Shown piece after piece: positions 40,645-60,110 of a stretch of DNA of 64,000 bases. The notes under the pieces were generated by a model. The model did no database searches. It worked only from the letters and a program-made list of their open reading frames with translations, and had not been told where the DNA came from. Position numbers and translations under genes: made by a program. Numbering within the stretch: position 1 is the stretch's first letter; each line of letters begins with the position of its first letter. This DNA is from Aporhodopirellula aestuarii (lineage in GTDB: Bacteria > Planctomycetota > Planctomycetia > Pirellulales > Pirellulaceae). The DNA is taken from NCBI RefSeq assembly GCF_023701485.1, contig NZ_JAMQBK010000014.1, positions 62,001 to 126,000 on the forward strand, given 5' to 3'.

Positions 40645-43600
40645 CTACCGCGTGGCAACCGGGATAACGGCGTCATAGTCAGTAATTTCGATATCCACGA
40701 ATTCATCTTGCAATTGCCACGCTCCCGACTTGGCCGCGTTCGATACGGAAAAGTGAATCGCGGCCGGCGCACCCGTGATCCCGGATCGCGCGTCCATATC
40801 GAGGTGAAAGACATGCTGACCAACACCGTTGGCGACGTCGAAGTAGCGCTGCACCTTGGTGAGCACACCATCATCGTTCGCCAAACCGATTCGCAGGGGC
40901 GTCATGCCTGTCGCGTTCACATCATGAACTTCCAAGATGCGTAGCGTCTTCCTACTTCGCGAAGCGTCGTCCTCCTCGACAGCCATTCGATACACGACAC
41001 CTTCAATTCCCGGCACCACCGTATCTTGCGAGTAAGAATCGGGCGATCGTAAGACCTCGGATAGCAAGACCGACTCAGTCGGTTGCGTCACCTCATTTTT
41101 GCACCAAAAACGCACCCTGGCACGATCAGCTTCGCGGGGCCAATGTTCCGCAGTCCACTGCAAAACCGGAACCGGCTCAAATGGCTGGAAGTGAGCGTCA
41201 TAAAAATAATAGCTGTTGGCGTCTTCACAGATCGGCGTCACTTCTAGCCAAACTTCCGTTGGACGTCGCGTCCAGACTTCATATTGTGCTTGTATCGAAA
41301 CGCTTAACGTAAGACTCGCGTCATGACGAACGGGACGATGCACGCGACAAACGTAGCCCGTCTCCCGGCCGTACTGGGTAACCAAAGGGACCGTCGTCGG
41401 CGAGTTGACGTCATAGGGAATGCTACGAATCTGCGGACGATTGGTTGCAAGCAGTTGAAGCCATTGCCCATCGTAGAGATCGATTTCGGCGGTTGCATCG
41501 CGAAATTGAACTATCGCGGGCGTTACCGTCTCGCGTTGCGTGGAAAGCCGAATGGATTCGTTGAGCAACCGCTGTTGTTGTGACAATTCATCGCCGGGTC
41601 GGTTGGCCGCATCGCCGACTACCGTGTACGTGCCCCCGCCTAGACGACTTTTCAATAAATTCAGCAGGTCACGGCCGTTTGACGCCGTGCGATAACTGCC
41701 GTCACTCGCTTGCGCGATTTGTTCGAAGGCACGCTTCGCTTCCACACGCTCATCCTTCTCGACCCCAAAACCAAGAATGTGGACTGGAATCGAGCTCTCT
41801 TGCACGAGGTCGACAACGCTTGTCAGACTCGTCGGCGCGGTCTCCGCAGACCAACGATCCGAGGGAGTGAATTGGTAATTGACTCCGTCGGTGATCACCA
41901 CAATGCTCTTGTCCGTCTCCCGATCGTCCTGCGTGAACGCGGCGATCGCCTCCATGATGCTCAGATACAGAGGCGACTGTCCCCAAGGCAGCAACCCGTC
42001 AAGCCGAACAGCAAGTTTTGCGGCTTCGGTACTGTCAAATCGCCCCAACGACAAGACCGACTCGACATCCGTACTCGCCGAAACGTTGTCGGGGATCGGC
42101 AATACATACCGGGGTTGTGTCAGCAGTCGCACAGGTGATGATTTACTCCACCCGATGCGGTGTCCGAAAGCAATCACACCCACCCGCGTTGAACCTTCAC
42201 GAGCGAGTTCGTCGAGCATTCCGGCGAGCGTGCTTTTCGCGACTTCGAGCTTTGACAGAGCACCGACGCCCGGCCGTTCACTTGGGGCCGGATCTGACAT
42301 GCTAGCGCTGCAATCGAGCACAAAAATGATGGATGGTTGCTGACGCCCTTCACCAAACAGCGTCAGACGGGCACTTCCATACTCTTGGGGTTCATACGAG
42401 AACTGCGTCCCTTGACCGGTGCTGATGGTCAAAGGCGCATTGAACTCCAGCCCGCGGAAAAACGTCGTCAGCTGGACTCTCCCCTCAATCTCCTTTGAAC
42501 GCTCGAGCGATACCGAGACGAGAGGATAAGAGTCTTCATCAAACGGGAATTTGATGCGGCACGTGTTGGGATGCCCATCGCGATCGGTTGAAGGATGAGT
42601 ATCTTGAACGTCCATCCGTTTTCCCGAACGCGAACGCACAAACACCGTGGCAAGTCCGGGGGCCAATTCAATACCGGGCATCATCGGTTGCAGTTTGGCG
42701 TCTATTCGCACGTCACCCAAACCTGGTGTGGGACTGCTATCCTTGGCCAAACTGGATACACCACCCATCGCGGTGAGGCGTTGATTGGTCAGTAGTCGCC
42801 TCAGGTTTTCGACCTCGCTGCCTAACACCGGACGAGGAATTGCGATCGACTCTGCGGCGTTGATGTAGTCGTCGGCGACCATTGCAAAAAATGGTTGCTT
42901 CGCCGGTTGGCCATTTTCATCGAGCCACTCACCGCCCCAACTATCTCGTAACGACTCAGCCGCCATCCACAGAAATTGCCCGCGTATTCTTTTGAGATGC
43001 TCGAACTGCAATAGATCGACGGCGCTCTGCGGAAACCATAGACCTGAGGCGGATCGGACGTGCTGCTCGCGGCTTAATCGAGGTTTGCCGTCTGGATCCC
43101 CGATGGACTCTTCGACCGATGCCGAGTCAACGCGAGCAAGCGATGCACAGTCCAGCAGATACCGCCTCATCTTTTGATTAACGGTCTCAGCAATCTCCAC
43201 CGGCTTGCCGACCGAAGCGAGCACGCCCACTCTCAAACGATCTTGCTCAAGACTGGCAATCGAGCTCGCTACTTGCGGTGCCCAAGCAAGCAACGACAGG
43301 ATGTGCTCTTGCAACTCCTCTTGGGTTCGAGCATCTTCGGCGTCGGGGATTTCGTCTAACTGTTCGTATTGATAGAGCAGCTGGATCTTCGAGTCTTCAT
43401 ATCGCCCAATGAGCTTTTGACGTGTTTCACTGTCTATGAGCGGAGTTGCGAGCAACGCGTGCATTTCACGCCACCGAGCGACTGTCACATCCGGCAGATC
43501 AATCAACGCTTCGGCATGCAATTTCAATGTCGCACGCAATGCTTGGTGACTCGCCGCAACGTCCCGAGAGTAGCGAACGATTTCATTCAATGCTGGTTCG

Positions 43601-45516
43601 CTTACATCCGAACCGGCGAGCAGCAGGTTCAGCTGCAACACACGTTCTGAAAGTTCCACCAGCGATAGTGTCGGGTTTCGCAGATCGATAACCGCGGTGG
43701 CCGCGTGAGTTTGTAACCAAGGGTCAGCGAGCCATTGTCCTAAATAAGGAAGCTCGTTGTTCACCTCGTCCGCGATCCGAAACGCTTGTGTCAAAGCGAC
43801 CTGCTTTTCCACGATACGACCTAGCAACTCACTGGCACGGTTCGTCTGTGTCACGAGCGCCGCATCTTCACCGTTCCACAGCGTGTCTTCGCAAACACGA
43901 ATCGCGTCAAATGCCTCGGATAGATTTGCACGCAATCGCTCGTGAACTCGCGGATCTCCGAAAGCTTCGCCTTTCATGCCGGCCGCTAACCGCATGCCAC
44001 GCTGGCGTAGGTTTGCGACAACAGACAGCGGCTTATTGCGTGACCATTGATTCAACGTGTCTGCCGCATACGAAATCTGGAGGTACTGTAACTCCGTGTA
44101 TCCGTGAAGCCGATCACTCAACGTCGGCCAGATGAACTCGTCGCCGCTGGCTTCCCGAATGGCTTCGCTGATCGAACCACGCAGATTTTCCGCCTCAACG
44201 GGCGTGATGCTTCCGATCGCTTGCGCAGCTTCGACGCTGTGGGGTTTGGACAGGGGTAAAAAATGAGGCTGATCCCATCCCAGGTTCGCCCATTGTTGAG
44301 AGAGGCTCCCCCAATCGCTTCGGGACAACGCTTCCAACTCAGTCTTTAATTCCGCGTACAACTGAGCTGCCTCCGAGGACAACGATGAATCCGCAGACCG
44401 CAATTGCTCCAGCCTCAATAATTCCTGTTGTAAGTTGCGAAAACGAATCGGATCTAAACGCAGAAACGGAGTCGATTTCAATTGATCCAACGTCTTCCAC
44501 AACTCCATCACATCGGACACTTTGACGCGTGACTCGCTTACTAGAGACGAAAGCTTGTGGTCGGAAAGTCGCTGCACTACCGACTGATGAATCGAAATCG
44601 TCAAGTCGACATCGCCCGCCGAGCCTACATACAGTTGCGGAGTTTGATTTTCGCCGCGGTTTGTTTGCGACCATGACTGCACGCGTGACGAAACAAACTG
44701 GTGAAGCCTGCTGGCCAATATCGTTGCTTCGGTCGAATCGCTATCACTCGCTTGTCCCGCCAATCCTTGGGCGAGATTCAGAGCGAACGTTGATCTTGGC
44801 CATGCGATTTCGCCCGGAGCAGAGGAGGTCAAGATAATCGAGTTCGAATTGCCTTCTTCTAGCAACTGACTCGCGCTTTCCACGAAGTCGTTGTAAAAAA
44901 CACCCAGGTCCCAATCGGTTTGAACGCGCGCACAATCAAGTATGACAAGTCTCTTTGCGTTCGGGGGAAGAGACTCGTCCATCACGTCAAACAGTTGCTG
45001 CACGCGAATCCACGTCGTTACGTCGTGAGGATTGGCGGTGGCGGGGACGATACACGGTTCCCCAAGGTCGTCGACCAAACCGATTGCATTGATATAGAAG
45101 ATGCAGCATCCGCGACGTTCGACCTCGTCAGCATGCTGCTTTAGCAGCTTCGCAAATTGTCCTAGCCCCGCTGCAACCGATTCCCAATTCGACGGCGTCT
45201 GGTAGAGACTAATCGTCTCGCCATCAAGTTGCTGGAGTAGCTTGACGTCCTCCTGCGCCCACGGGTTGACGGGAAATGGAACGGCGTAATTCGATTCCAC
45301 CAAGGCAAAGCACGGCGTCTTGTCAGGTGAGTAGGGCAGCAAATAGATCAGCCCACCCAACAATCCAAACGCAACCACCGACCAAACAAAAAGCCTCACC
45401 GACCGCGTGGCCGACTTACCGCTCACTTTCGTGTCGTTTGAAGACGAGTGCCATTGATGTGGCGACACCGTCGCCGTGTTCGGTTGTTGGTTCGCCCAGT
45501 TGGTCTGTATGCTCAT
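40645..45516 (-). CDS. Giant membrane protein: pseudo-caspase domain plus vWA domain
   Basis: 1623 residues. A short N-terminal tail, one membrane helix (~45-66, LFVWSVVAFGLLGGLIYL), then a caspase-like domain (~70-310): ALVESNYAVPFPVN, a strand CIFYINAIG where active enzymes have the catalytic His-Gly, PATANPHDVTTW, RLVILDCARV near 190 where they have DAC, then SAPGEIAWP and ALNLAQGLAG. The His is missing and Cys is shifted by one. Residues ~330-930 are helical. A vWA domain (~1055-1260) has an intact MIDAS start LDCSASM near 1066 and ITDG near 1209; the rest is beta-rich. Topology: mostly periplasmic. Last gene of the vgrG-led operon. The vWA call is firm, the caspase-like call is by pattern. 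Confidence 0.82.
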   Translation of the reverse strand: MSIQTNWANQQPNTATVSPHQWHSSSNDTKVSGKSATRSVRLFVWSVVAFGLLGGLIYLLPYSPDKTPCFALVESNYAVPFPVNPWAQEDVKLLQQLDGETISLYQTPSNWESVAAGLGQFAKLLKQHADEVERRGCCIFYINAIGLVDDLGEPCIVPATANPHDVTTWIRVQQLFDVMDESLPPNAKRLVILDCARVQTDWDLGVFYNDFVESASQLLEEGNSNSIILTSSAPGEIAWPRSTFALNLAQGLAGQASDSDSTEATILASRLHQFVSSRVQSWSQTNRGENQTPQLYVGSAGDVDLTISIHQSVVQRLSDHKLSSLVSESRVKVSDVMELWKTLDQLKSTPFLRLDPIRFRNLQQELLRLEQLRSADSSLSSEAAQLYAELKTELEALSRSDWGSLSQQWANLGWDQPHFLPLSKPHSVEAAQAIGSITPVEAENLRGSISEAIREASGDEFIWPTLSDRLHGYTELQYLQISYAADTLNQWSRNKPLSVVANLRQRGMRLAAGMKGEAFGDPRVHERLRANLSEAFDAIRVCEDTLWNGEDAALVTQTNRASELLGRIVEKQVALTQAFRIADEVNNELPYLGQWLADPWLQTHAATAVIDLRNPTLSLVELSERVLQLNLLLAGSDVSEPALNEIVRYSRDVAASHQALRATLKLHAEALIDLPDVTVARWREMHALLATPLIDSETRQKLIGRYEDSKIQLLYQYEQLDEIPDAEDARTQEELQEHILSLLAWAPQVASSIASLEQDRLRVGVLASVGKPVEIAETVNQKMRRYLLDCASLARVDSASVEESIGDPDGKPRLSREQHVRSASGLWFPQSAVDLLQFEHLKRIRGQFLWMAAESLRDSWGGEWLDENGQPAKQPFFAMVADDYINAAESIAIPRPVLGSEVENLRRLLTNQRLTAMGGVSSLAKDSSPTPGLGDVRIDAKLQPMMPGIELAPGLATVFVRSRSGKRMDVQDTHPSTDRDGHPNTCRIKFPFDEDSYPLVSVSLERSKEIEGRVQLTTFFRGLEFNAPLTISTGQGTQFSYEPQEYGSARLTLFGEGRQQPSIIFVLDCSASMSDPAPSERPGVGALSKLEVAKSTLAGMLDELAREGSTRVGVIAFGHRIGWSKSSPVRLLTQPRYVLPIPDNVSASTDVESVLSLGRFDSTEAAKLAVRLDGLLPWGQSPLYLSIMEAIAAFTQDDRETDKSIVVITDGVNYQFTPSDRWSAETAPTSLTSVVDLVQESSIPVHILGFGVEKDERVEAKRAFEQIAQASDGSYRTASNGRDLLNLLKSRLGGGTYTVVGDAANRPGDELSQQQRLLNESIRLSTQRETVTPAIVQFRDATAEIDLYDGQWLQLLATNRPQIRSIPYDVNSPTTVPLVTQYGRETGYVCRVHRPVRHDASLTLSVSIQAQYEVWTRRPTEVWLEVTPICEDANSYYFYDAHFQPFEPVPVLQWTAEHWPREADRARVRFWCKNEVTQPTESVLLSEVLRSPDSYSQDTVVPGIEGVVYRMAVEEDDASRSRKTLRILEVHDVNATGMTPLRIGLANDDGVLTKVQRYFDVANGVGQHVFHLDMDARSGITGAPAAIHFSVSNAAKSGAWQLQDEFVDIEITDYDAVIPVATR

Positions 45517-45631
45517 CGAGCCAGCGGTTCCTCAATTCGGCTATTTTCGTCGAGAGCACTGCAAACGTTGCCAAGACTCCATCATCAGACGGAGGATCAC
45601 GCCCAGGCGAAGGTCGATACGACGACCACAC
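45416..45631 (-). CDS. Possible small ORF overlapping the giant gene start
   Basis: A GTG-started 71-codon frame with plausible composition (VLATFAVLSTKIAELRNRWL). It is open a further ~18 codons upstream (…FDRKHWSKRPVW). It overlaps the first 100 nt of the 1623-residue gene; if real, that gene might instead begin at a GTG at 45426 just before its membrane helix. I favour the longer giant protein because the 1725-residue paralogue also has a short tail before its helix. Confidence 0.22.
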   Translation of the reverse strand: MWSSYRPSPGRDPPSDDGVLATFAVLSTKIAELRNRWLDEHTDQLGEPTTEHGDGVATSMALVFKRHESER

Positions 45632-45756
45632 CGGGCGTTTGGACCAATGCTTTCGATCAAATCCAAACTGATCTCGGCAGCAGGATTGTCATTAGATCAT
45701 AAACCGTATTCCGCCCGCGGGCACGGCATTTTCCCCAACAACGCAGGCCAATTCGT

Positions 45757-47097
45757 CTATTGGTCCGCACGCGACAAGACTCGCAGCAGGTACCAGCGAT
45801 GATCACGCGTCAAGATCGGGCTGGTCTTTCCAACGGGCAGCTTTTTCAAATACGACTGCTTCTCATTCCATCGAATCTCGTCCACTGATGTCAATTCAAA
45901 TCTGCGGACCGAAATTTCGTCAGCGGTGAACTCCGGTTTTTCCAAATCCTTGCCGTCAGCTTTGGATTTGAGGAAAACCATGATCTGCCTCGCCCGCTCG
46001 ACGGAATCGAACTCCTGGGGATCAATCGTGATCTCCTCCCACGAAACCTTCATCTGAGACGGTGGACGGGTCCATGCCACGGCGATCGCCGGCGTTTCTT
46101 TTTTTGACCAGACTGCCGGCTTGGTGATCGAAGTGGGGCGTTGGCTCGAACTGCCGACTCCCGACCGCGGATGAGCCGATTCTTCGACGTCCGGCAGACG
46201 CTGAGGCGTGGCAAAATCGACGGCTCCGATCTGATGGACATCGAGCGAGCCCGAATCGCCACCAAGACTACTCGCTACGGTCCCGCCCGGGACGGGATCC
46301 GCCCCGACTTCGGCCGCAGGATCCGTTGACTCCTCAGGGCCTTCTTCCGGTCCCTCCTCGGGAAGTTCCTCGATCGAATCGTCACCGCAGCAACCGCACA
46401 ATGCGAGCCGTGCCTGGCGGCGAACTCGCTCCGAAGGCTCGTCAAAACAGCCGTTCTTGTCGATATCGTAGGCCACTTTCTTCAGCTTTTTCCGAACCGC
46501 TGATCCGCAGCAGGCATCGGCCTTGCAGAAAACGCATGCACTGCCAACCGTCGACCGGATTCCCTTCGCGGCTTCAAATCGAACGGCCTCGGTGCAATCA
46601 TCCAACGCCGCCAACAACGCTTCTTCCACATCCGGATAACATCCGCCACAGCCTAAGCTGGCCAAGTATTGAATTCCTTTGATCTTCTGCTGGGCGGCAT
46701 CTTCCTCCGCCTTCACCTTCGCCGCCACTTTGACCGCGGGGCTGGATTGCTCGCTGAGATTCGCAGGATCGGTGATCGCAAGGAGCGGAGGTGCTCCTTC
46801 CAAACCTGGAAAACGACCTCCCAATTTGTATTGAAAATGCTGCACGCTACCGACAACGCAGCCCGAAACACTTTCGAGAATGTGCGTCACACCGGTCAGG
46901 TCGAGCAAGTTGGGAACCGGCCGTGCGGGGCCCGGCGCAGGCTGAATCGCCACAATCGTGGTGTCTGCCAAATTCGCGCTCGTTTGCGGGACGATCGGCG
47001 TTTCCGTGGGTGCAGGCGGAACCATGGCGCAACCCGCCGCTGAAATCAGCAACGCTAACGAAGCGAATAGCGAAACGGGTTGACGAGTACGACTCAA
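45757..47097 (-). CDS. Cys-rich HEAT-like lipoprotein of the vgrG operon
   Basis: 446 residues. A lipobox LLISAAGC ends the signal peptide at about Cys23, so it is probably anchored to a membrane facing the periplasm; a Pro/Thr tail follows. Residues ~130-240 hold two HEAT-like helical pairs (VEEALLAALDDCTEAVRFEA, then RVRRQARLAL) in a region with about a dozen cysteines, some in CGGC and CCG pairs. A Glu-rich run EELPEEGPEEGPEE follows; the C-terminal 120 residues are folded and unassigned. Position between the two giant genes of the same strand suggests a shared complex. The cysteines might bind metal or form disulfides; unproven. Confidence 0.78.
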   Translation of the reverse strand: MSRTRQPVSLFASLALLISAAGCAMVPPAPTETPIVPQTSANLADTTIVAIQPAPGPARPVPNLLDLTGVTHILESVSGCVVGSVQHFQYKLGGRFPGLEGAPPLLAITDPANLSEQSSPAVKVAAKVKAEEDAAQQKIKGIQYLASLGCGGCYPDVEEALLAALDDCTEAVRFEAAKGIRSTVGSACVFCKADACCGSAVRKKLKKVAYDIDKNGCFDEPSERVRRQARLALCGCCGDDSIEELPEEGPEEGPEESTDPAAEVGADPVPGGTVASSLGGDSGSLDVHQIGAVDFATPQRLPDVEESAHPRSGVGSSSQRPTSITKPAVWSKKETPAIAVAWTRPPSQMKVSWEEITIDPQEFDSVERARQIMVFLKSKADGKDLEKPEFTADEISVRRFELTSVDEIRWNEKQSYLKKLPVGKTSPILTRDHRWYLLRVLSRADQ

Positions 47098-47425
47098 TTT
47101 TCAACGAGGCTCCACCAGGTACATATACAGACGCCACGTACCGACTATCGTCGTATCGGTAAAGCCAACTTTAGCGAATACAACGATTGTCCATGCCCTA
47201 GCGGGTTCCCCGGGGGCATGCTCGGGGGCCCCGCTGAACCAGCGCACCTAGCCGCGGATATTGCACGCGATTCGTAGGCCGTAACGCATAAACCATTGCC
47301 AAGCCGGAACTACGGTCGCAAATCGATTGATTTTGAAAATAACAGAATGTATTTCGAGCAAATCAGGTTGATGCGGATACGGCAGGGTTTTTCGCGACCT
47401 CGGTCCGGCCTACGCAATACCCTGG
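47098..47425. other. Intergenic region with GC-rich hairpin
   Basis: Between the 1725-residue gene end and the lipoprotein start. AGCGGGTTCCCCG pairs with CGGGGGCCCCGCT (47200-47235) with a short internal loop; no T-run follows. It could slow transcription or fold the operon mRNA. Nothing else was recognised. Confidence 0.4.
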
Positions 47426-50400
47426 CTAGTGAGCGATCAACTGAAGCCGAATTGCTTTGCCCGGTTTTGGGATCACCCTGATCTCTTGCTCGGCAAAACG
47501 CGGCCTGTTTCGAGCGAGGCCGACGACGCGAAGCGAATACGCGCCGGGAATCACACTCGGAAAGACAAACTGCCCTTTTTCGCTCGTCGTGGTCGCAAGA
47601 GGAGCCGGTGGCAGCTTCGTAGGAGTTTCTGCTGAATCACCCGCTGCCTTCTTTTCGGTTAGCAACGGCGTTAGCGTCACTTTGGCCGATCCCAACGGCT
47701 CATGATCGTACGTGACCGTCCCACTGACCGTATTGGCTTGCGCAGCGAGCGGATCGGCGGCCGTCTCCGTTACGATTACAGGTGTTGGCACAACGGGGCC
47801 GGTGTTTCCTGCCTTGTCCGTTGCCCGCGTCAAAAGATCGTAGCTGCCTGGCCGAAGCTCTTTGAAAGGAACCTCGGCGACCCAGCGAAGCAGATCGTCT
47901 TGCTTGCCCTCAATCGGTTTGGCGTCTTCCGAGAAAGTTCCCGTGAAGGTGCTGTCGACCAAAAACTCGACCATCGCCACACCGCTGAGGTCATGATCAT
48001 CCGCAACGGCTCGCACTTGGATCGTTCCATCAACTACAACCATCCGATCCGGCACCAATTCAACCTTCGTAATTGTTGGCCCTGCGCTGTCTAAGATGAC
48101 TTCGAGTGGCTCGCTCCACAACTGCTTCTCGCCCGACACCAACTTTGCCAAAACGTTGGCTCGCAGATTGCTCGTACGGTGAGTCGGAATTTCCAATGCG
48201 AAATCGCTAACGCTCGTTTGAATGACCATTCCGGAATCCGCTAGCTTCGTGACCAGATCCACCGAACGATCCGACAGCAACACGGTCGTGTTTTCATTCC
48301 GGAATTCACGGTCGCGATCCATGTCCAATCCGACCTCAATGAAATCCTGCCCGATGTTCTGCAAAGGAAAGGTTCCCACGGGGGAGTCGATTTCCAGATG
48401 GACCGGAATGCTTTTGGCCGCTGCCCCAAACACGGTCCCAGCCAAGGGCGACTTGATGCGAATGTCGAATCGTTCGCTCTGCTTATCGAAGGACGTAGTG
48501 GAGGTTTCGCAGGGTATGCGATAGGTGAACGCGCGTGGATATCCATCGACATCGATCACGACTTCCGCCCATGAGCTGGACGAAGGAACAATACTCGATA
48601 ACGTCGCCACAAAATCGGGTGCCCCTAAGACACCAGTCAATGTTGCCGCGTTTGCCGCACCCGAAGCTTGAACGTGCACACTCAGATTGATTCCACCCTT
48701 CGGCACGATCGCGTCCGAAACAGCCGCGACTTTCACCGACAACTTGCGAGTTTTGGCATCGTAGGACAAACTCGGACGAACAAATCGTCGTGGTCGTTGA
48801 ACAGCGATCGCGATCCGTCGAAAAATCGATTCACCGGTCACGGGGTCTTCGATCCAAAGCACGCTACCGAAGTCGCTCTCAAACGACAACCACTCGGGAG
48901 ACTCGCCCGCTGATGGATCCGCCCCCGAAGGCGGAGCAAGTTCGGTCACGTCGGCAGCATCCGGTGAGACAGGCGGGGCGGCAAGCAAACTCGTTAGCGG
49001 ATTAGCCTGATTCGGTAAAATGGATACGCCGCTTCGTTTGACAACCACTTCCGTGCCCCCAAGTGCCTCAAGCACATCCGCCCCGCGTTCGGCGCTGACG
49101 GAGCCGGCGGGCAATTCAAGTTCAACGGCTGACTTGATCGCTAACAGCGTCAAGTCAACGGTTTGAATCGATGTGTTCTCACTCAACAGAGCTAGGTCAA
49201 ACGAAGTCTCGCGGTTCGGTAATGGATGCAGCAACAGTCCGTCTTGCAGCGACGTCGCCAGCTCACTGGGGCCTCCGGCTATCAACCTCATCGAAGGCGG
49301 AGCCGGCAACATGACGTCGGTCTCATGGCGAACATACGCATCTGCGGAGATGATTTTCGTGATCAGCTTTGTTGTCCGCCCCACCGGTTTCTTGCGCCGC
49401 ACCTTGAACACGATCGGTTTGGGCGAATTGATCTCCAAAATCATCGAAGGCTTGATATCGGCCTTCGAGGGATCGACCGGATACTCCGCAGCCTCACCTA
49501 ACGAGGATGCCATTTGAAGCAAAGCCTTCGTTTGATTTTGCGGATCATTGTTCGCCGCCGACCATTGCGATTTCACCTCGGCCTGCGTTCGCATTGACTC
49601 AAGTGTACGCAAGAGCGACCAGCGAGACTCGACGTAGGCTGAATCGGCAGCTTGCACTTCCAGCAACGACTCGTCGTAATCAAGCACAATCCAAACCGGA
49701 TGCGGCGAATCGGCGAACAAACGCATGTCGAGCGTCAGCGTCGATTCCGGTTGTGTCTCGAGAGAAACCGCCCGCGGCCCAGAGATCGAAATGCGTTGCC
49801 TCGATTCGGTCGTAACCGGAGGTCCAACCTTCGACGCATTGATTTTGCTTCTCGTTTCCGTGACGGCTTGTTTGATGCGTTGGAATTCGGCGTCACTCGC
49901 GTCCCTTTGCGCCAGCAAAAGCTCGTCATGCGCTAAAAGGTACTGATCGTATTCCTTCGCCGCGGTGAGATAGTCGAAAATAGGTTTCGAATTCAGCAGC
50001 GGAAGGTCACGCGAGTCGACCAAGCCAACTGCTCGGATTGACGAATCGAGCAGATTTCTGGTCGTTGCGTAACTATCGAGAGTCTGAAGACCGCTGCGTA
50101 GATCGAATGCTCGGTTGATCGCTGATACACGTTCGACATATCCATCAGCTAAACTTTCATACCGTTCGAAGATCTCAACATCGGAATCGAGAAACTTCAA
50201 ATGCCACTCGGCCGCAAGGTTCAAGCCACGCGTTTTCAATTGCAGCAGCCGCAGTTCGATGGCGGCGTTTTGCTGAAGCTGCTCTTGTTTGCGACGTCGC
50301 GGCTCGTCTGACGGAGTCGCCACCGACTCCTGGACTTGAGAATCGAAGTCTTGCCAAAAGTTGACATCAGCCTTCGGCAACATGGCCTCGATTTCCGAGC

Positions 50401-52603
50401 GTCTTTCAAAAGACACCGCGATCGACCGCGAAAGCAACTCCAGCGTGGCCAGATTGGGTGGCGTCTCCCCAACGGCATGCGAAGCGATATTCTCGGCATC
50501 CGTCGCAATGCGAAAGTGCAGCGGCGAGAGTTCGCGCATCGTGCCGGCAAGCAACTCAATGTCTTGCTTCGCTATCGCACTATCCAAACGCTCCAGCCGA
50601 TCGATTAAACGCTCCAGATCACTTGCCGACAAGAAGTTCGCGCGGGTATCGCCTGCGAGATCGATGCGCAAGGTGAGGTAATCGGGCAACCTCATCAGCA
50701 ATTCAGCCCGCATGCGTTTGGACATCTCAATCAACTGCAAATCATCGATGACGTCCTGATACTGACGACGGATGTCCTCAAAAACCTCCGTCACGAACTG
50801 TCGCCAATCGTCGCGTGTCCGATCAAACAACAATCGCTGCGCGAATAAATTCCGTTGGCCGGTAGCGAGCACTCGTTCCCGCAGGCCCCCGTGGTACGCA
50901 GCCAGATATCGTTTCGCTTCGTCAGCGAGCAACTGAGTCGAAACAGCATCTCGAATTAGTGATTCGTCGAGTTCCCGTTCTGCAGCCAAACGATAGAGCA
51001 GCCTTGTCGCCTCATCGCCGTCAGCTTGAGGGAGCGGATTCGCATCCACCCACTTTCGGATCGATTGATTATCATCGGCGATCAATGAAGTGATCGCCGC
51101 GGACCTGGAGCGTGCCTGAGCGTTCCATAATATTGAGAAGTGAGCCACTTGCGGATCGATCGATTCCGGCACCTGCTCGCCATTGGCCAGTCGCCTCAAT
51201 GCAAAGTGCATCCGTTGAATCGCATTTTTCGTTTGCCGCTTTTCAGCCTGGACTGAGGGCTTGACGAGCGCTTGCTCATACCAAAAGAGTTGCTGGCGAA
51301 TTGAACACCAAAGACTGGGGGCGACATCGATCGGACGTGGAGCGTCGCCTGTATTGAGTTGTTCGATGATTGCCCAACTATCGGCGATCCGTTGTGACGT
51401 TGTGAGTTTGGAACTGTTTCGAAGGCCGGCCCCCGCTTCGGGTGGAACCGGTTCGCCGTCCAAAGGCTCGACCGCGGCGTCCTCTTTCTCCCCGGAAACC
51501 AAAGCCCCCGCTTCCTCTTCTGCCTCGCCGTCACTCTCCTGGACCGTCTCCTCTGGCGTCGCCCCGGTTGATTTTGGCTCAGCGTTAAGAACATCACTTG
51601 AGTTTGCTGACGCGTCGTCAGATTGTTCTCTTTGACGCGACCTGACCACATCGGATATCACACTCGCCGAACTCTCTGGATCGAAGCCCGCAGTCGACAC
51701 AATTTGTGGAAAGACGCGCCCCAACAAATCACCACCTCCCCAGACCAACTCGGGAGTTTGAACGAATAAACCTTGCGACCGCAGCGATGAACTCTGCATC
51801 ACCTGCCGCGAAACATATCGGTGCAATTCACCGATATCCACACTCGTGCTCTGATCGACGTCTGCATGCCCTGCGAGACCACGATCAAACCAAAATCGAA
51901 ACAAAGATTCTTTGAGGGCCGGAGAACTTTGCGCGTATTGCCAGTCGCGATGCGAAGTCAGCACCCACAAATCGTCGCGCCCGCTCTTCCCAACCAATTC
52001 TTTTACCGATGACATAAACCGACCGGGAACTTGGCCAAGTCTCACATCGTACGTTTGGTCTTCCGTCTCGAAGACCAACAACTTCACACTCGCTCTTAAG
52101 TTCCCAATGCGCCGCAAAATATCAGCAACGGCGTAAACACCCTGACCGGGATTCGCAACATTGAAGTCGCGACACACAAGGACAGGCTCGCCTGCGATCA
52201 CCATCCCTCTGGCACGAACGTACAGAACGAGCGAGTCAGAATTCTCAAAGCCGTGCACTTGGAGCGTACGAAGAAAGCCTGACAAGCTGGCGGGTGACGA
52301 GAGTTCGTCGAGTTCGAACTGACCTTGCTGAGAAGGGAACAGCCCTAAAAACGGATCGGTTTCGCCCGTAAAACTTCCCATTAATGGCAGTCCGCTCTCG
52401 GGAGAATATGCCGTTTCGCTTACTGCGGCCCAGTACGTGTTGGGATGCCAGAATGGCGATAGGCTGAGATAGACAAGAAGTCCGATCAATCCAAAGCCGA
52501 AGACCGTGACGAAGACTCGACGTGTCAGCCGACGTACTCGAGAGGGTGCACGCTGCGATGGGTGCCAAGGTTGCCTCAACAACTTTTCTTGATTGCTTTC
52601 CAT
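47426..52603 (-). CDS. Giant membrane protein: pseudo-caspase plus Ig-like and CarboxypepD-like domains
   Basis: 1725 residues, the same plan as the 1623-residue protein. A short basic tail (RVRRLTRR), one membrane helix (~29-50), then a caspase-like domain (~60-300): LVLYVRARG near 130 replaces the YFSGHG strand, KLLVFETEDQ near 178 replaces LDACR, while WVLTSHRDWQYAQSS, FRFWFDRGLAGHAD and DIGELHRYVSRQV keep the rest of the fold. The dyad is absent, so it should be inactive. An acidic linker (~330-395) and a long helical region (400-900) follow. From ~930 are several Ig-like beta-sandwiches, and from ~1624 a carboxypeptidase-regulatory-like domain (VSGTVTYDHEPLGSAKVTL). Mostly periplasmic. 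It follows the FHA gene by ~150 bp. Confidence 0.8.
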   Translation of the reverse strand: MESNQEKLLRQPWHPSQRAPSRVRRLTRRVFVTVFGFGLIGLLVYLSLSPFWHPNTYWAAVSETAYSPESGLPLMGSFTGETDPFLGLFPSQQGQFELDELSSPASLSGFLRTLQVHGFENSDSLVLYVRARGMVIAGEPVLVCRDFNVANPGQGVYAVADILRRIGNLRASVKLLVFETEDQTYDVRLGQVPGRFMSSVKELVGKSGRDDLWVLTSHRDWQYAQSSPALKESLFRFWFDRGLAGHADVDQSTSVDIGELHRYVSRQVMQSSSLRSQGLFVQTPELVWGGGDLLGRVFPQIVSTAGFDPESSASVISDVVRSRQREQSDDASANSSDVLNAEPKSTGATPEETVQESDGEAEEEAGALVSGEKEDAAVEPLDGEPVPPEAGAGLRNSSKLTTSQRIADSWAIIEQLNTGDAPRPIDVAPSLWCSIRQQLFWYEQALVKPSVQAEKRQTKNAIQRMHFALRRLANGEQVPESIDPQVAHFSILWNAQARSRSAAITSLIADDNQSIRKWVDANPLPQADGDEATRLLYRLAAERELDESLIRDAVSTQLLADEAKRYLAAYHGGLRERVLATGQRNLFAQRLLFDRTRDDWRQFVTEVFEDIRRQYQDVIDDLQLIEMSKRMRAELLMRLPDYLTLRIDLAGDTRANFLSASDLERLIDRLERLDSAIAKQDIELLAGTMRELSPLHFRIATDAENIASHAVGETPPNLATLELLSRSIAVSFERRSEIEAMLPKADVNFWQDFDSQVQESVATPSDEPRRRKQEQLQQNAAIELRLLQLKTRGLNLAAEWHLKFLDSDVEIFERYESLADGYVERVSAINRAFDLRSGLQTLDSYATTRNLLDSSIRAVGLVDSRDLPLLNSKPIFDYLTAAKEYDQYLLAHDELLLAQRDASDAEFQRIKQAVTETRSKINASKVGPPVTTESRQRISISGPRAVSLETQPESTLTLDMRLFADSPHPVWIVLDYDESLLEVQAADSAYVESRWSLLRTLESMRTQAEVKSQWSAANNDPQNQTKALLQMASSLGEAAEYPVDPSKADIKPSMILEINSPKPIVFKVRRKKPVGRTTKLITKIISADAYVRHETDVMLPAPPSMRLIAGGPSELATSLQDGLLLHPLPNRETSFDLALLSENTSIQTVDLTLLAIKSAVELELPAGSVSAERGADVLEALGGTEVVVKRSGVSILPNQANPLTSLLAAPPVSPDAADVTELAPPSGADPSAGESPEWLSFESDFGSVLWIEDPVTGESIFRRIAIAVQRPRRFVRPSLSYDAKTRKLSVKVAAVSDAIVPKGGINLSVHVQASGAANAATLTGVLGAPDFVATLSSIVPSSSSWAEVVIDVDGYPRAFTYRIPCETSTTSFDKQSERFDIRIKSPLAGTVFGAAAKSIPVHLEIDSPVGTFPLQNIGQDFIEVGLDMDRDREFRNENTTVLLSDRSVDLVTKLADSGMVIQTSVSDFALEIPTHRTSNLRANVLAKLVSGEKQLWSEPLEVILDSAGPTITKVELVPDRMVVVDGTIQVRAVADDHDLSGVAMVEFLVDSTFTGTFSEDAKPIEGKQDDLLRWVAEVPFKELRPGSYDLLTRATDKAGNTGPVVPTPVIVTETAADPLAAQANTVSGTVTYDHEPLGSAKVTLTPLLTEKKAAGDSAETPTKLPPAPLATTTSEKGQFVFPSVIPGAYSLRVVGLARNRPRFAEQEIRVIPKPGKAIRLQLIAH

Positions 52604-52757
52604 TCAGACCACCATCACTCAGCTGCAATTATCTTAGGAATCAGACCCGCCACTTCGGATCGAATATTTACTCCGTGATGATCTTCGAAAAAAGAACGAA
52701 CACCCACCGATTCGATGTTGCAATTCGCCATTCGGCACGCACGAAACCGCAGCTAGG

Positions 52758-53681
52758 TTAACTCGGGGCCACACACGACGGCAATGCAAATTGTTGGGTC
52801 CAGGGCTCTTTGCCGTTGGCAAGCATTTCTGACATGACGGAATGAACGTTTGGCGGATCGCAATAGCCGGCCACCATCAAGGCTCCCGCCACGAGGGCTC
52901 CGCACAATCGCTCATCCGGCTCCACCGGGTCAACGTCTGGATGTCCGATACCGCCCCCGCTCGTAAACGCAGCATAGGCGATTAACCCTGCTGCGCCACC
53001 GCCGGCCGCTTCCGAGGCCGCTTCCGCGGCCCGGCGCGTCTCGTCAGATGGATCTTTCACCCAATGCTCGGCCGCCTCCAAGGCGGCGAGATCGAGCGTT
53101 TTCATGCTCAGCTTGGACTCCAAATTCCGTACGCAAACACACGCCCACCAAACCGCGTGAATTCTAGGTAACGTATTCGCTCGCAAACGTAACGCCGGAA
53201 AATACATCTCGGTCTCGGTCAATTCGGCAATCAACGGTTCGACATCTTCGTGACGCAGAGCGATCGGTGTCACATCGTCATCCAGGTCCAGGTGGCCACA
53301 CAGGTCCACCATCGTCATCGCGGCCGCGATCTGTGTTGCCTCGGCCGCCAAATCCTCGGACGCCTCGTCGTGCTGAGTTTCGACAGCCCCCTCGACAGTG
53401 ACGGCAAATGTAGTCCGGCTGACGGTAATCGTGTCACCGGTCATGATTCGACCTTCCTGCACAGCCTGTCCATTAACGAGCATAGGTGCATTGGCTCTCG
53501 CAATCACACGGCACTCGCCTCCGCGACAATCCATTTCAAAATGAATCGCTTCTAGGCCGCGATCATCCGCCAACCGATAGTCAGCGTGGTCCGTACCACC
53601 GATGGTCGCACGCTGACCTCCGCGAAGCTGAATTCGACGTCCGATCCCTGGGCCACGGACAACTTGAATCAGTGCAATCAT
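52758..53681 (-). CDS. FHA-domain protein linked to T6SS
   Basis: 307 residues. An FHA domain (~1-95) binds phosphothreonine: RATIGGTDHADYRLADDRGL, HFEMDC, MLVNGQAVQEGRIMTGDTIT. After a linker, residues ~140-305 form an Ala-rich helical module (LAALEAAEHWVKDPSDETRR) that may be the DUF6931 type known beside planctomycete FHA proteins; the name is tentative. FHA proteins often control T6SS assembly through Thr phosphorylation. It starts 22 bp after vgrG with a GGAG ribosome site, so the operon couples the spike to a phospho-signal. Confidence 0.82.
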   Translation of the reverse strand: MIALIQVVRGPGIGRRIQLRGGQRATIGGTDHADYRLADDRGLEAIHFEMDCRGGECRVIARANAPMLVNGQAVQEGRIMTGDTITVSRTTFAVTVEGAVETQHDEASEDLAAEATQIAAAMTMVDLCGHLDLDDDVTPIALRHEDVEPLIAELTETEMYFPALRLRANTLPRIHAVWWACVCVRNLESKLSMKTLDLAALEAAEHWVKDPSDETRRAAEAASEAAGGGAAGLIAYAAFTSGGGIGHPDVDPVEPDERLCGALVAGALMVAGYCDPPNVHSVMSEMLANGKEPWTQQFALPSCVAPS

Positions 53682-53703
53682 GTATACCCTACTCCGTAAT
53701 GCG

Positions 53704-55665
53704 TCAATTAATTTTCAGAATTGCACCACTTAGCTTTAACGTTGCCGCACCTGACACGTCAGCAATCGCACCACCTATTTTGACTTGCGCTTGCGCCGCA
53801 ATCTCAACTTGCGGAGAACTTATGGTTATCTTCGCTGGTTCGATTTTGATGCTGCTCGCACCCACCTTCAGCTCAATGACCTGTCCCGCTTGCGTGACAT
53901 GTTTGCCAACGGGAACTTTGATGGTGCGGTTGCCGAGTTTGATCTCAATCGACTCGTTACCTTTCTCGACCACGGTGTCACGGTTGCCGCTCTTCACCGT
54001 GATCGTTTCATTTCCTTGTTCAACCGTCAGGGTGCGATCGTTGAAAACCTCGATCGTTTGATTCCCTTTGTCCTTTTTGTCTTGCCCAATCTTGATCGTC
54101 GCATCATTCTCGACGATTTGTGTGAAGTCTCTTTCCGCATGAAGGTAGATTTCCTCCTCATCCGCCTTATCCTCAAACCTCAATTCATTGAAGTTTTTAG
54201 GCTTTCCTCCCTTTGTCGAACGTGACTTGATTCCACTTTGCGTTTGATTGTCGGGAAGGTCGTACGGTGTCGTTTGCTTGGCATTGTACACGCGTCCGGT
54301 AATCACTGGACGATCCGGATCCCCGTCCAAGAATTCGACCAACACCTCCTGTCCGATTCGAGGAATATGCACGGAGCCCCAGCCCTTACCGGCCCAGGTA
54401 TTGCTAACGCGAATCCAGCAAGAACTATTCTCATCGTTCTTACCCTCGCGATCCCAAGGGAATTGAACTTTGACGCGTCCATACTTGTCGGTCCATATCT
54501 CCTCCCCGGACTTGCCGACCACCACAGCCGACTGAGGCCCCGAAACAATTGGACGCGGTGTAGTGGAGGGTGAGCGAAACTGGTCCGACTTCTTCATGGC
54601 TTCGAAATGCGTTTCGAATTCATTCGCACCGCCAGAAAAAACTTGAATCTCCGATGACACGATTCGGACGATCGAACTGGTAACTAGGTATTCAACTCGA
54701 TTCTGATCCGTGCGAGGATGATCCTCCATCTCAAAGCAGGAACCAGTAACCAGCGTCACTTCATTTCCGACACCCATGTACCGATTGTGATCCGCCTGAT
54801 ACTCCTCCGCTCGCACTTTTGCCAATTGTGTTCCATTCCCAACCTCGGTGTATCGACCGGGAAAATCATAACGCTCAAACTTTGCGAGCTTATGTCTTCG
54901 AGTCACGTTCGCCCTGGCGGTAATATCCGCCTCGGGTTTCTCAAAGTCGTAATCGCCAATCGTGACAGATGTTGAATGCAGCTGGCTTCGGAAGGTCCAC
55001 GACGAAATATGCTTTTGTTCGGCAGGGGCTTCACCGGGACGACGAAACGGAATGGGATTCATCCCTTTGATGGTCGTGTGACTTGCCGAGTCGTCAACTA
55101 ACACCATCGTGTGTTTCTTTTCCTCATGCACGAAGTAGTAATAGATCCCCTCCTCTTCAAGCAAACGACTAACGAAATCGAAATCCGATTCGCGGTACTG
55201 CACACAGTAATTCCGCTTCGGATGCTGCTTTGTGAGCGACAATTTGAAATCCGTGAAGCCGTGCGTCGTTTTAAAGATATCGCTAACGATTTCGGGAACC
55301 GTTTTCGCTTGGAAGATCCGGCTGTCGGTTGTGTGATTGAGGAACCAAAGCCAAGGTCGGAGCACGATGTCATAGACGCTGAATTCGTTGTGCACTCCTT
55401 GATACGAGATTTCCGAAACTATGCCGTGGATAAATCTTTTCTTGTTCTCGATAGGCTCGTAGTGCAGCGCCAAGGATTCGCCCAGGTACTTGCTGTCATC
55501 GACCGAATGATCTTTGCTGAACGCTCGGATGGCACATTCAAAGGGTCGCCCCAAGGCATCCTCGTACCGAAGATTTTCAAGCAACAGGCCATCCTTATCT
55601 TCTGATTTGCCCAGAGCCGAAACGATGCGGTGAATGCGTTCCTTCTTTACCATCTGATACGCCAA
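53704..55665 (-). CDS. vgrG: Type VI secretion tip protein VgrG (TssI)
   Basis: 653 residues. N-terminal gp27-like part (~1-370) with the usual FQAKTVPEIVSDIF and RESDFDFVSRLLEEEGIYYY; gp5 OB-fold (~390-470) with KYGRVKVQFPWDREGK, WIRVSNTWAGKGWG and EVLVEFLDGDPDRPVITGRV; then the beta-helix needle (~500-653) of repeats like VEQGNETITVKSGNRDTV. No extra effector domain at the C-terminus; it ends LKLSGAILKIN. VgrG trimers cap the tube and puncture targets. Leads the operon with the FHA and giant membrane proteins, separate from the tssEFG-clpV operon. Confidence 0.95.
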   Translation of the reverse strand: MAYQMVKKERIHRIVSALGKSEDKDGLLLENLRYEDALGRPFECAIRAFSKDHSVDDSKYLGESLALHYEPIENKKRFIHGIVSEISYQGVHNEFSVYDIVLRPWLWFLNHTTDSRIFQAKTVPEIVSDIFKTTHGFTDFKLSLTKQHPKRNYCVQYRESDFDFVSRLLEEEGIYYYFVHEEKKHTMVLVDDSASHTTIKGMNPIPFRRPGEAPAEQKHISSWTFRSQLHSTSVTIGDYDFEKPEADITARANVTRRHKLAKFERYDFPGRYTEVGNGTQLAKVRAEEYQADHNRYMGVGNEVTLVTGSCFEMEDHPRTDQNRVEYLVTSSIVRIVSSEIQVFSGGANEFETHFEAMKKSDQFRSPSTTPRPIVSGPQSAVVVGKSGEEIWTDKYGRVKVQFPWDREGKNDENSSCWIRVSNTWAGKGWGSVHIPRIGQEVLVEFLDGDPDRPVITGRVYNAKQTTPYDLPDNQTQSGIKSRSTKGGKPKNFNELRFEDKADEEEIYLHAERDFTQIVENDATIKIGQDKKDKGNQTIEVFNDRTLTVEQGNETITVKSGNRDTVVEKGNESIEIKLGNRTIKVPVGKHVTQAGQVIELKVGASSIKIEPAKITISSPQVEIAAQAQVKIGGAIADVSGAATLKLSGAILKIN

Positions 55666-57404: not shown

Positions 57405-60110
57405 CTAATTATCGAATGCGTAAGCGAATTCGCCGTCGCTGACACCGAGATTGACGCGTGAAACCTCGCGACCTTCGGCCGTACGCAGCAAAAGTTCGCG
57501 ACTGATTTCGGGCAACACCGTGTTGGTTAAAATCGAATCGATCATACGCCCGCCACTCTCCAACTCAGTACATCGGCTCGCGATGAGCGTGATCGCTTCT
57601 TCGTCGTAGGTCATTGGGATGCGGTATTTTTCTTGGACGCGTCGCTGAATTCGCCCGAGTTGCAACTTAGTGATCTTGCCGATCATCTCGTCACTGAGAG
57701 GGAAGTAGGGGATGGTCACGATGCGACCAAGCAGCGCCGCGGGAAACACACTCAACAGCGGCTCTCGCAGTGCCTTGGCAATCCCGTCAGGCGACGGCAT
57801 CAATTCCGGGTCGCTGCACATATTCATAATCAAGTCACTGCCGACGTTCGAAGTCAACAGAATTAACGTATTGCGGAAATCAATCCGACGTCCTTCGCCA
57901 TCCTCCATCACGCCTTTGTCGAAGACTTGAAAAAAGATCTCGTGAACATCGGGGTGTGCCTTCTCGACTTCATCCAACAACACAACGCTGTACGGTTTTC
58001 GGCGGACCGCTTCGGTGAGAACTCCGCCTTCACCGTAGCCCACATAACCGGGAGGAGCTCCTTTCAAACTCGACACCGTATGAGCCTCTTGGAATTCGCT
58101 CATATTAATGGTGATCATGTTCTGCTCCCCTCCGTACAGCAGCTCGGACAACGCCAGCGCGGTTTCTGTTTTTCCAACACCACTGGGGCCGCAAAACATG
58201 AAGACGCCGATCGGTTTGCTCGGATTATCCAGTCCCGCCCGCGAGGTTTGCACGCGTTTAGCAACCATCTCCAATGCGTGACGTTGCCCGATGACGCGTT
58301 GATCCAGGTGGGTGGCCATGTTCAGCACGGCATCGATTTCATCTTTGAGCATCCGCCCGACGGGGATCCCAGTCCAATCGGCAACGACGGCGGCAACAGC
58401 CTGCTCGTCGACACTCGGTAGGATCAGAGGATTTTCCCCTTGCAGCTCCGCTAATTCGGATTGCAATACGGAAAGCTTATCGAGCAACTGCTGACGCTGT
58501 TCGTCGGAGAGTTCTGGCTTGGCGCCGTCGACGTCGTCGGGCGAGTCCTTTTGCAACGCGTCACTTCGCAGACGGGCACGAATTGCGAGTACTTTTTCAA
58601 CACGCTCCTTTTCGGTATTCCATCGCGACTCCAGTTTCGCCAATTCGGCTCGGAGCGACTCAAGCTTCTTTTCTGCAGCTTCTCGACGTGCCAGTGTTTC
58701 GACGCCAATGGCGCTTTCACTCTTGATGATCTTCAATTCCGTTTCATACGCATGGATATTCCTTTGCACGTACTCCACCTCCGCCGGAACGGAATGCTGA
58801 GTCATCGTCACGCGGGCACAGGCGGTGTCGAGAAGGCTGACACATTTGTCCGGCAGCTGCCGATCGGGAATGTAACGGCTCGACAGCTTCACGGCCGCTT
58901 CGATCGCCTCATCTAAGATTTGGGCTTTGTGATGCTTTTCAAGCGACGCTGCCATGCTGCGCATCATTCGAATCGCCTTCTCTTCGGAAGGCTCGTCGAC
59001 CTTAACAACCTGGAATCGACGTGTGAGCGCGGGATCCTTTTCAATGTATTGCTTGTATTCCGCCCACGTGGTTGCGGCAATCGTCCGCAGTTCGCCGCGT
59101 GCCAGGGCAGGTTTGAGAAGATTCGCCGCATCGCCCGTTCCTTGCTGGCCACCCGCCCCGATCAGAGTGTGTGCTTCGTCGATGAACAGGATCACGGGCT
59201 TTTCAGACGACTGGACTTCTTCAATCACCTGCTTTAGCCGATTTTCAAATTCGCCTTTCATACTCGCCCCGGCTTGCATCGCGGCCACATCAAGACTTCG
59301 CAATGACACCTCTTTCAAGGGCGGAGGAACTTCACCCGACACAATTCGCTGGGCGAGACCTTCTAAGATCGCCGTCTTTCCGACACCCGCTTCGCCCGTC
59401 AGGATCGGATTGTTCTGACGACGTCGCATCAAGATATCAACGATCTGACGAATTTCATCGTCGCGACCGATGACCGGATCCATCTCGCCACTACGAGCTT
59501 TCTCGGTCAAATCATGGGAGTAGCTTTGCAGGGCTTCTTGCTTGCCCATTTGCGCCGGTGCCATCGCGCCGCTGGCGACGCCGGGGGCCACGCCGCCTCC
59601 GATTTGCCGGCCGTCTTTCGCCGACATATTTTCTTCAGGCGATGAGGACACAATCTCGCGAAAGTTGTCGACAAGCTGTTCGATTTTGATCTTGCTGAAC
59701 TCACTCGAAATGGATGCTAGCGCGTGAGCCAGATCTCGCGTTTTCAGCAGCCCCACGATGAGGTACCCCGTCCGAACTTGCGAATCGGCGAACATCAGTG
59801 TGCCGTACACCCAACCACGCTCAACACCCTGTTCGATATGTGGCGAGAAATCCGATATCGATGTCGAACCGCGAGGAAGCTTATCGAGCGAGGTGGTGAT
59901 ATCTTTCGCGAGCCGACCGGGGTCGATTTGAAAGTGGCGTATGATCTCGTGCAGGTCGGAATTTTCGAGCTGCAAGATCTGGTGAATCCAGTGCACTAAT
60001 TCGACATAAGCGTTGCCACGCATTTTGCAGAACACGGTGGCAGCTTCGATCGACTGATACCCGACGGAATTGAGTTTCCCGAACAATGTCGCGCGGCTGA
60101 TTTCAATCAT
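57405..60110 (-). CDS. tssH: Type VI secretion AAA+ ATPase TssH (ClpV)
   Basis: 901 residues. An N-terminal Clp-N domain (~1-165), AAA+ module 1 with Walker A GEAGVGKTAILEGLA near 240 and Walker B VILFIDEAHTLIG, a middle coiled coil (~400-560), AAA+ module 2 with GPSGVGKTETALALSE near 646 and YSVVLLDEVEKAHPD, and a C-terminal D2 domain. ClpV disassembles the contracted TssBC sheath to recycle it. The 77-bp gap after tssG and shared strand make it part of the tssEFG operon. Length and order fit T6SS ClpV rather than ClpB. Confidence 0.95.
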   Translation of the reverse strand: MIEISRATLFGKLNSVGYQSIEAATVFCKMRGNAYVELVHWIHQILQLENSDLHEIIRHFQIDPGRLAKDITTSLDKLPRGSTSISDFSPHIEQGVERGWVYGTLMFADSQVRTGYLIVGLLKTRDLAHALASISSEFSKIKIEQLVDNFREIVSSSPEENMSAKDGRQIGGGVAPGVASGAMAPAQMGKQEALQSYSHDLTEKARSGEMDPVIGRDDEIRQIVDILMRRRQNNPILTGEAGVGKTAILEGLAQRIVSGEVPPPLKEVSLRSLDVAAMQAGASMKGEFENRLKQVIEEVQSSEKPVILFIDEAHTLIGAGGQQGTGDAANLLKPALARGELRTIAATTWAEYKQYIEKDPALTRRFQVVKVDEPSEEKAIRMMRSMAASLEKHHKAQILDEAIEAAVKLSSRYIPDRQLPDKCVSLLDTACARVTMTQHSVPAEVEYVQRNIHAYETELKIIKSESAIGVETLARREAAEKKLESLRAELAKLESRWNTEKERVEKVLAIRARLRSDALQKDSPDDVDGAKPELSDEQRQQLLDKLSVLQSELAELQGENPLILPSVDEQAVAAVVADWTGIPVGRMLKDEIDAVLNMATHLDQRVIGQRHALEMVAKRVQTSRAGLDNPSKPIGVFMFCGPSGVGKTETALALSELLYGGEQNMITINMSEFQEAHTVSSLKGAPPGYVGYGEGGVLTEAVRRKPYSVVLLDEVEKAHPDVHEIFFQVFDKGVMEDGEGRRIDFRNTLILLTSNVGSDLIMNMCSDPELMPSPDGIAKALREPLLSVFPAALLGRIVTIPYFPLSDEMIGKITKLQLGRIQRRVQEKYRIPMTYDEEAITLIASRCTELESGGRMIDSILTNTVLPEISRELLLRTAEGREVSRVNLGVSDGEFAYAFDN

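Follow-up and report, generated by a model that had tools for sequence, protein, structure and literature searches.

The vgrG-linked module and its secretion system neighbourhood

We analysed a 64,000-nucleotide stretch of the planctomycete Aporhodopirellula aestuarii (contig NZ_JAMQBK010000014.1, positions 62,001 to 126,000; hereafter the window), which is part of a 194-kb contig (C46), and focused on a module of five minus-strand genes next to genes of a type VI secretion system (T6SS). The module starts with vgrG (tssI; 53704..55665), which encodes the spike protein of 653 amino acids (aa); this identity, given by a first-pass annotation of the window, is certain (TIGR03361, E 3.2e-192; also PF05954, PF22178 and PF04717). 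It continues with a gene for a 307-aa FHA-like protein that carries DUF6931 (52758..53681; PF22011, E 2e-33), a gene for a 1725-aa protein that we call giant1 (47426..52603), a gene for a 446-aa predicted lipoprotein (45757..47097) and a gene for a 1623-aa protein, giant2 (40645..45516). In this order, the intergenic gaps are 22, 154, 328 and 240 bases. The first-pass annotation had presented the five genes as one operon. The genes, their strand, coordinates and lengths are exact, and a single transcript is plausible for the vgrG-FHA pair with its 22-base gap.

To the right of the module, still inside the window and on the same strand, lie genes for a ClpV/TssH-type AAA+ ATPase (57405..60110; AAA_2, AAA_lid_9 and ClpB_D2-small), TssG (60187..61209; PF06996, E 6.2e-104), TssF (61173..63053; PF05947, E 2.8e-233) and the gp25-like TssE (63057..63563; PF04965, E 1.4e-20). 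From its position in the cluster, the ATPase appears to be ClpV and not ClpB. Past the window edge follow genes for ImpE, Hcp, TssC, TssB, TssA, u595 (595 aa, with an N-terminus that looks like a signal; C46:131268-133055, L004:11268-13055), TssK, TssL/DotU (PF09850, E 8.1e-26) and a 734-aa protein. Together with VgrG, the Hcp, ImpE and Tss proteins listed here make up a T6SS machine with sheath, baseplate, tube, spike and ClpV. The first-pass annotation had overlooked that the module adjoins ClpV, TssG, TssF and TssE, as well as a vWA domain in giant2.

TssJ and the periplasmic part of TssM are missing

A T6SS requires an anchor across the envelope. Using the family PF12790 (SciN), a search that gave a positive result for the Escherichia coli control, we found no TssJ match in the window genome (G000). 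The 734-aa protein is a short TssM, which TIGR03348 matches weakly and at positions 194-299 of its 1168 alone; by the same model, the window genome has no periplasmic TssM region. When eight short TssM proteins were aligned by hhalign with two full TssM proteins, the match had a probability of 97.9 (E 6e-13) and was confined to the domain preceding the last transmembrane helix of TssM, a domain that we take to be cytoplasmic. The short TssM frame ends just after a hydrophobic stretch, which we likewise take to be the counterpart of that last helix. Its P-loop, GSSNDQQE, looks degenerate by eye against the motif that we would expect.

We then considered 60 genomes, the window's own and relatives, using TssC as the T6SS marker. 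TssC was found in 24 of them. The short TssM was detected by direct search in 23 genomes, all TssC-positive, and the twenty-fourth (G042) gave a weak TIGR03348 match together with a profile match. TssJ was found in one of the 60 genomes, and a full TssM exceeded the cut-off in two. In one of these two (G054), the full TssM lies on a contig with a GC content of 0.65 (C97, locus L039) and is either an orphan gene or part of a contaminating contig.

The giants accompany the T6SS in Planctomycetia

A single-sequence search with giant2 gave matches in 20 of the 60 genomes, all of them TssC-positive, and in none of the 36 TssC-negative genomes. A profile built on the helical region of giant2 matched 22 genomes, again all within the 24 that carry TssC; the two that it missed (G042 and G046) were shown to have giants by single-sequence search or neighbourhood reading. 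The four genomes missed by the single-sequence search (G035, G042, G030 and G018) were recovered by neighbourhood reading, which brings the giants to 24 of the 24 TssC-positive genomes. The corresponding search with giant1 matched 24 genomes, of which 20 are TssC-positive and four TssC-negative. Within the genus of the window, TssC is present in four of 13 genomes, each of which has both giants; the other nine gave no giant2 match. One genome (G039) has two TssC, two short TssM and two giant pairs, the second of which adjoins vgrG (L221).

The same pattern was seen in a sample of 236 genomes from the whole phylum, where TssC occurs in 57 genomes, seven from Planctomycetia and 50 from other classes. 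None of the seven has a full TssM or TssJ, and all seven have giants, five by profile and two (G195 and G251) by their neighbourhood, where three proteins are encoded in a row: one of 1604 aa whose tail reads KRSWRAG, a short TssM and giant2. In the 50 genomes from other classes, TssM was matched in 47, with a frame longer than 1,100 aa in 46 and a score over the curated cut-off in 25, and TssJ was found in 32. The profile gave no clear giant in any of these 50, although it also misses two of the seven giant-bearing genomes of its own class. In 18 genomes of other classes (for example G123, G154, G167 and G203), the TssM frames are about 1,180-1,620 aa long and TIGR03348 matches no further than position 555; no TssJ match was obtained in 13 of the 18. 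These frames perhaps carry yet another kind of periplasmic half.

Domain architecture of the two giants

Each giant has a basic N-terminal tail followed by one hydrophobic helix near the N-terminus, as the single membrane helix of the first-pass annotation implied. By the positive-inside rule, the tail would be cytoplasmic and more than 1,500 residues would be periplasmic. The tails (45388..45516 in giant2 and 52517..52603 in giant1) are rich in tryptophan, at 4.1% compared with 1.8% for the whole proteins, and the dipeptide W[RK] is present in 68 of 89 non-redundant giant tails. In 2000 shuffles that kept the composition of each tail, the mean was 29.4 and the maximum 43; none reached 68. The window's own copies are atypical: giant2 has only WH and WA, and giant1 has PWH where many relatives have SWR. 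This tryptophan-basic motif looks like a docking peptide.

The tail and helix are followed by a pseudo-caspase domain. The structure model of giant2 residues 62-330 (44527..45333) gave a caspase-like fold, as had been predicted from the letters alone, and the aligned slice of giant1 (51551..52459) would share it by homology. The replacements that the first-pass annotation had noted at the catalytic dyad, NAIG or RARG for the histidine motif and DCA or FETE for the cysteine motif (RARG and FETE in giant1), also read as claimed. Across 56 aligned pseudo-caspase domains, the catalytic histidine is present in 34 and the cysteine in two. PF00656 matches two of the 56 (best E 2.1e-6) and does not match the giant2 domain of the window. 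Thus, the domain has the fold of the C14 peptidases (caspases, metacaspases and MALT1), but it differs from them in being fused to a transmembrane helix and to helical, vWA or Ig-like parts, and in that histidine and cysteine occur together in only one of the 56. Because the domain persists despite this, a structural role is suggested.

The distal parts of the two giants differ. In giant2, residues 325-1062 (42331..44544) were modelled by AlphaFold2 (pLDDT 81.0, pTM 0.84) as a helical region followed by seven strands in an Ig-like sandwich. Next comes the vWA domain (residues 1063-1282, 41671..42330; PF00092, E 2e-6), which is followed by a C-terminal part. The metal-ion-dependent adhesion site (MIDAS) of the vWA domain is complete (DxSxS, T/S and D), with D1068, S1070, S1072 and D1210 invariant in 17 aligned rows, and its motifs are kept in 33 of 33 cases. 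Giant1 ends in an Ig-like domain and a CarboxypepD_reg-like domain (residues 1625-1708, 47480..47731; PF13620, E 1.7e-5). The latter match, at 25.5 bits, is under the curated cut-off of 32.3, which is passed in the relative at L147 (E 4.9e-10); the Ig-like domain is likewise under the Pfam cut-off in the window protein.

We built one tree from 42 frames longer than 1,000 aa, among them both window giants and one or more frames that look unrelated, and another from the 57 giants of the window and the named loci. In both trees, giant1 and giant2 formed two sister groups, and the 42-frame tree places giant1 across from the giant2 clade; the most divergent copies (for example, at L177 and L190) were placed less clearly. 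Pairs of giants longer than 1,400 aa were present in 17 genomes of the first tree, and further pairs were found in G030, G035 and G018. The second giant of G018 (1501 aa) has the WR tail and the helix, yet no profile match. Usually there is one giant from each clade per system. The best reading is that giants 1 and 2 are ancient paralogs maintained as a pair, and an obligatory giant1-giant2 heteromer would be the natural reading of this pattern.

Gene order in relatives

Six giant2 queries run against species genomes returned at least 56 loci, of which 35 were counted as giant loci; the counts below come from those listed. They belong to Pirellula, Rhodopirellula, Stieleria, Schlesneria and others, and many are cut by contig ends. 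Two giants are present in 24 of the 35. A script counted the row giant-lipoprotein-giant on one strand in 14, and the full order vgrG-FHA-giant-lipoprotein-giant is kept in four (L147, L149, L158 and L170). As for the neighbours, vgrG is present in 14 loci, an FHA-type gene in 13, tssK, tssL or short tssM in eight, and any of tssA, B, E, F, G, K, L or short tssM in 11. The neighbourhood beside vgrG thus recurs in relatives. Its absence there and a non-caspase fold had been named as results that would refute the first-pass reading, and neither was seen. The idea of a planctomycete scaffold, raised in the first-pass annotation, gains support, as the giants track the presence of the T6SS and, in many relatives, adjoin tssK, tssL or short tssM. 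One locus with giant1-lipoprotein-giant2 and vgrG of planctomycete type (L161) comes from a metagenome-assembled genome (MAG) labelled Deltaproteobacteria MED660, which is probably mis-labelled.

Lipoprotein, FHA-like protein and u595

The lipoprotein had been described as HEAT-like. This description is fair but incomplete: the window protein has a lipobox-like AAGC, a sub-threshold HEAT_2 match (E 0.11) and possibly degenerate SurA/PpiC-like parts. Among four relatives that were scanned, one has HEAT, SurA-like and peptidyl-prolyl isomerase (PPIase) matches (L159; Rotamase_2, E 6.8e-11; SurA_N_3, E 4.9e-7; HEAT, E 6.6e-4), one has a weak PPIase match and two have none. Many relatives show no lipobox near the called start. 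The Pfam scan of the window lipoprotein gave no vWA match.

The FHA-like part of the window's 307-aa protein has no Pfam match. Among four relatives scanned, Yop-YscD_cpl is matched by three, one of which matches FHA as well. The Fha/TagH proteins of T6SS likewise have an FHA-like domain and are encoded within T6SS loci; the window protein is distinguished by its fusion to DUF6931, a family for which our open-access literature search found no paper. Two Ser/Thr kinases with TPRs are encoded nearby (window 34525-37065 and C46:139731-142304), one of them within the T6SS cluster, and they are candidate writers for the FHA protein.

The u595 gene, located between tssA and tssK, has counterparts near giants in six of the 35 listed loci. 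The u595 of the window genome has no match, including to PF13557, an outer-membrane-like family that is matched in two of three relatives scanned, once over the cut-off. On this basis u595 is a candidate outer-membrane component.

A proposed membrane complex and its alternatives

Here the standard anchor has neither its lipoprotein nor its periplasmic half. The giants, strongly associated with the system and suitably oriented, are the candidates for the anchor. We consider it probable, judging from gene content, that the operon encodes an envelope-spanning T6SS membrane complex that replaces TssJ and the periplasmic half of TssM. With confidence only a little better than even, we further propose that Planctomycetia have a third type of T6SS membrane complex, in which TssM has been shortened to its cytoplasmic part and TssJ lost, and in which the giants and the HEAT/PPIase lipoprotein form a long conduit with a metal-dependent vWA ring near the outer membrane. 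The envelope of planctomycetes is unusual and their periplasm is wide, which a long conduit would suit.

In such a complex, giants 1 and 2 would form hetero-oligomers with one inner-membrane helix each, and their short tryptophan-basic tails would dock in the cytoplasm on the side of TssL, short TssM and TssK. The dead caspase folds may serve as oligomerisation or interaction modules on the outer face of the inner membrane. The helical parts would cross the periplasm, and two elements would face the outer membrane: the vWA domain of giant2, which would bind ligands in a metal-dependent manner, and the Ig-like C-terminus of giant1. The exit would be completed by the HEAT/PPIase-like lipoprotein, perhaps with u595 as a beta-barrel, and the FHA-DUF6931 protein and VgrG would tie the platform to phospho-control and to the spike.

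Several observations weigh against this proposal. G032 has a full TssM together with the only TssJ of the 60 genomes, and is 88% complete; G054 has a full TssM and no TssC match. In G032, the GC content of the TssM locus is above, and that of the TssJ locus below, that of its giant loci, and contamination is possible behind the TssM and TssJ of these two genomes. The distance between giants and core genes is often large: in the one-contig genome G041, giant2 lies at 2.5 Mb, giant1 at 5.4 Mb and the main TssC at 5.9 Mb, and in G018, also one contig, the giants lie at 5.0 Mb and tssF/tssG at 2.2 Mb, although scattered genes are common for TssNQOPR as well (PMC10781749). A MAG labelled Candidatus Kuenenia stuttgartiensis (L179) carries vgrG, two FHA-like genes and both giants, which means either that giants occur outside Planctomycetia or that the contig is mis-binned. 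The four TssC-negative giant1 matches are weak and cover the N-terminal part only. In the phylum sample, the profile matched marginally in one T6SS-bearing genome from another class (G231, E 8e-4, with an internal stop) and in one of the 179 TssC-negative genomes (G171, E 4e-4). Absence elsewhere is not exhaustive, as the profile misses giants in two of seven genomes of its own class and in two of the 24 relatives. The Fisher test of giant2 (single-sequence search) against TssC gives p = 2.5e-12, a value inflated by shared descent. Finally, a structure search with the helical region gave no T6SS protein among the matches listed.

A different function for the same genes would be regulatory or sensory: the FHA-DUF6931 protein would read Ser/Thr phosphorylation, and the giants, without forming a channel, would monitor the envelope or a neighbour and give permission to fire. 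The recurrence of FHA-type genes in the giant loci and of the FHA domain in relatives fits this model, as do the TPR Ser/Thr kinase gene inside the T6SS cluster, the vWA metal site kept in all 33 cases and the dead caspase folds, which would suit binding of a ligand or partner. However, the model leaves unexplained both the missing TssJ and periplasmic TssM and the close co-occurrence with the T6SS, and two giants with more than 1,500 periplasmic residues each seem to us large for sensing. Because TssJ and periplasmic TssM are missing, we hold a phospho-regulator to be less likely than a structural role, and regard this model as unlikely.

It is improbable that the giants are remote TssM homologs, which would mean that the periplasmic half separated from TssM, was duplicated and became joined to a caspase-like and a vWA or Ig-like domain. 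The short TssM does stop where the periplasmic half would start, and the giant2 model, in which helices precede a beta domain, is reminiscent of TssM in its layout. Pfam and NCBIfam nevertheless give no TssM match in the giants, and the structure search with the helical region had no TssM among the matches listed.

Still more doubtful is that the giants are cargo, that is, effectors linked to VgrG or surface adhesins that the T6SS would deliver or display. Their genes adjoin vgrG, and vWA and Ig-like folds are common in adhesins. In addition, caspase-like domains are described as processing peptidases in secreted toxins (PMC3482391). Against this stand the predicted N-in anchor with its family-wide cytoplasmic motif, the lack of a catalytic pair in 55 of the 56 domains, the usual presence of one of each paralog per system, unlike variable effectors, and linkage to tssK, tssL and short tssM and not to vgrG alone. 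The least probable alternative, that the giants belong to another envelope system and merely share genomic islands with the T6SS, can point to giants unlinked from the core in G041, G018 and G037 (giant2), but giant2 is found in none of the TssC-negative relatives and, in the phylum sample, only marginally in one TssC-negative genome.

Comparison with known membrane complexes

Like the TssJ-TssL-TssM complex of T6SSi, the planctomycete system has TssL and the cytoplasmic part of TssM, encoded in a row with TssK, and it differs in the absence of TssJ (PF12790) and of the periplasmic TssM region. The closest comparison to the proposed complex is TssNQOPR of the Bacteroidota T6SSiii, a system that lacks TssL and TssM and whose TssN binds TssK and has five transmembrane helices. 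In PMC10781749, this complex is described as combining anchors of one helix with PKD domains, a vWA protein and a lipoprotein, each of them required for the T6SS to work; its genes are often split over several loci, and T6SSiii was found in none of more than 20,000 genomes of other bacteria (PMC10781749). By that description, the proposed complex would share with TssNQOPR the replacement of TssJ and TssM, one-helix anchors, Ig/PKD-like folds, a vWA domain, a lipoprotein and scattered genes. Unlike TssNQOPR as described there, the planctomycete system keeps TssL and the cytoplasmic TssM, and it is therefore not a member of T6SSiii. The vWA domain is here in the membrane-anchored giant2, and in the lipoprotein TssR of TssNQOPR; the two giants of more than 1,600 aa with dead caspase folds are a further difference from the system of that account. 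In our view, the likeness would be convergent.

A T6SS has been on record for Rhodopirellula baltica since 2009 (PMC2660368) and was reported for freshwater Planctomycetacia in 2019 (PMC6461901). In the open-access literature, searched by title and abstract start and with subscription papers mostly outside, we found no description of a planctomycete T6SS membrane complex. If confirmed, the complex proposed here would bring to three the known ways in which a T6SS is anchored. Among T6SS parts, it is the membrane complex for which reinvention is known (TssJLM versus TssNQOPR), and a second independent replacement would indicate that the core fits quite different envelope platforms. It would also explain how the T6SS of these planctomycetes is anchored without TssJ and periplasmic TssM, and would give the dead caspase folds a structural job. 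Annotation rules that demand TssJ and TssM would miss or mis-class such systems.

Other features of the contig

Between vgrG and the ClpV gene, on the opposite strand, lies a 386-aa open reading frame (window 56094-57254, plus strand) for which no family was recognised. It has a paralog at C46:142472, and relatives of both flank giants in several loci. At 25704-31046 the window also encodes a 1780-aa hybrid protein with CheB, CheR, several PAS, histidine kinase and receiver domains. To the right of the window, C46:144663-175511 (L005 and L006) contains four paralogs of 534, 479, 596 and 506 aa with a near-identical N-terminal module, most of them followed by different large proteins that matched no Pfam family where scanned. 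After this array comes a 605-aa protein in which VipA- and VipB-like sheath parts are fused, and together these genes suggest a second, variable array of contractile or effector type.

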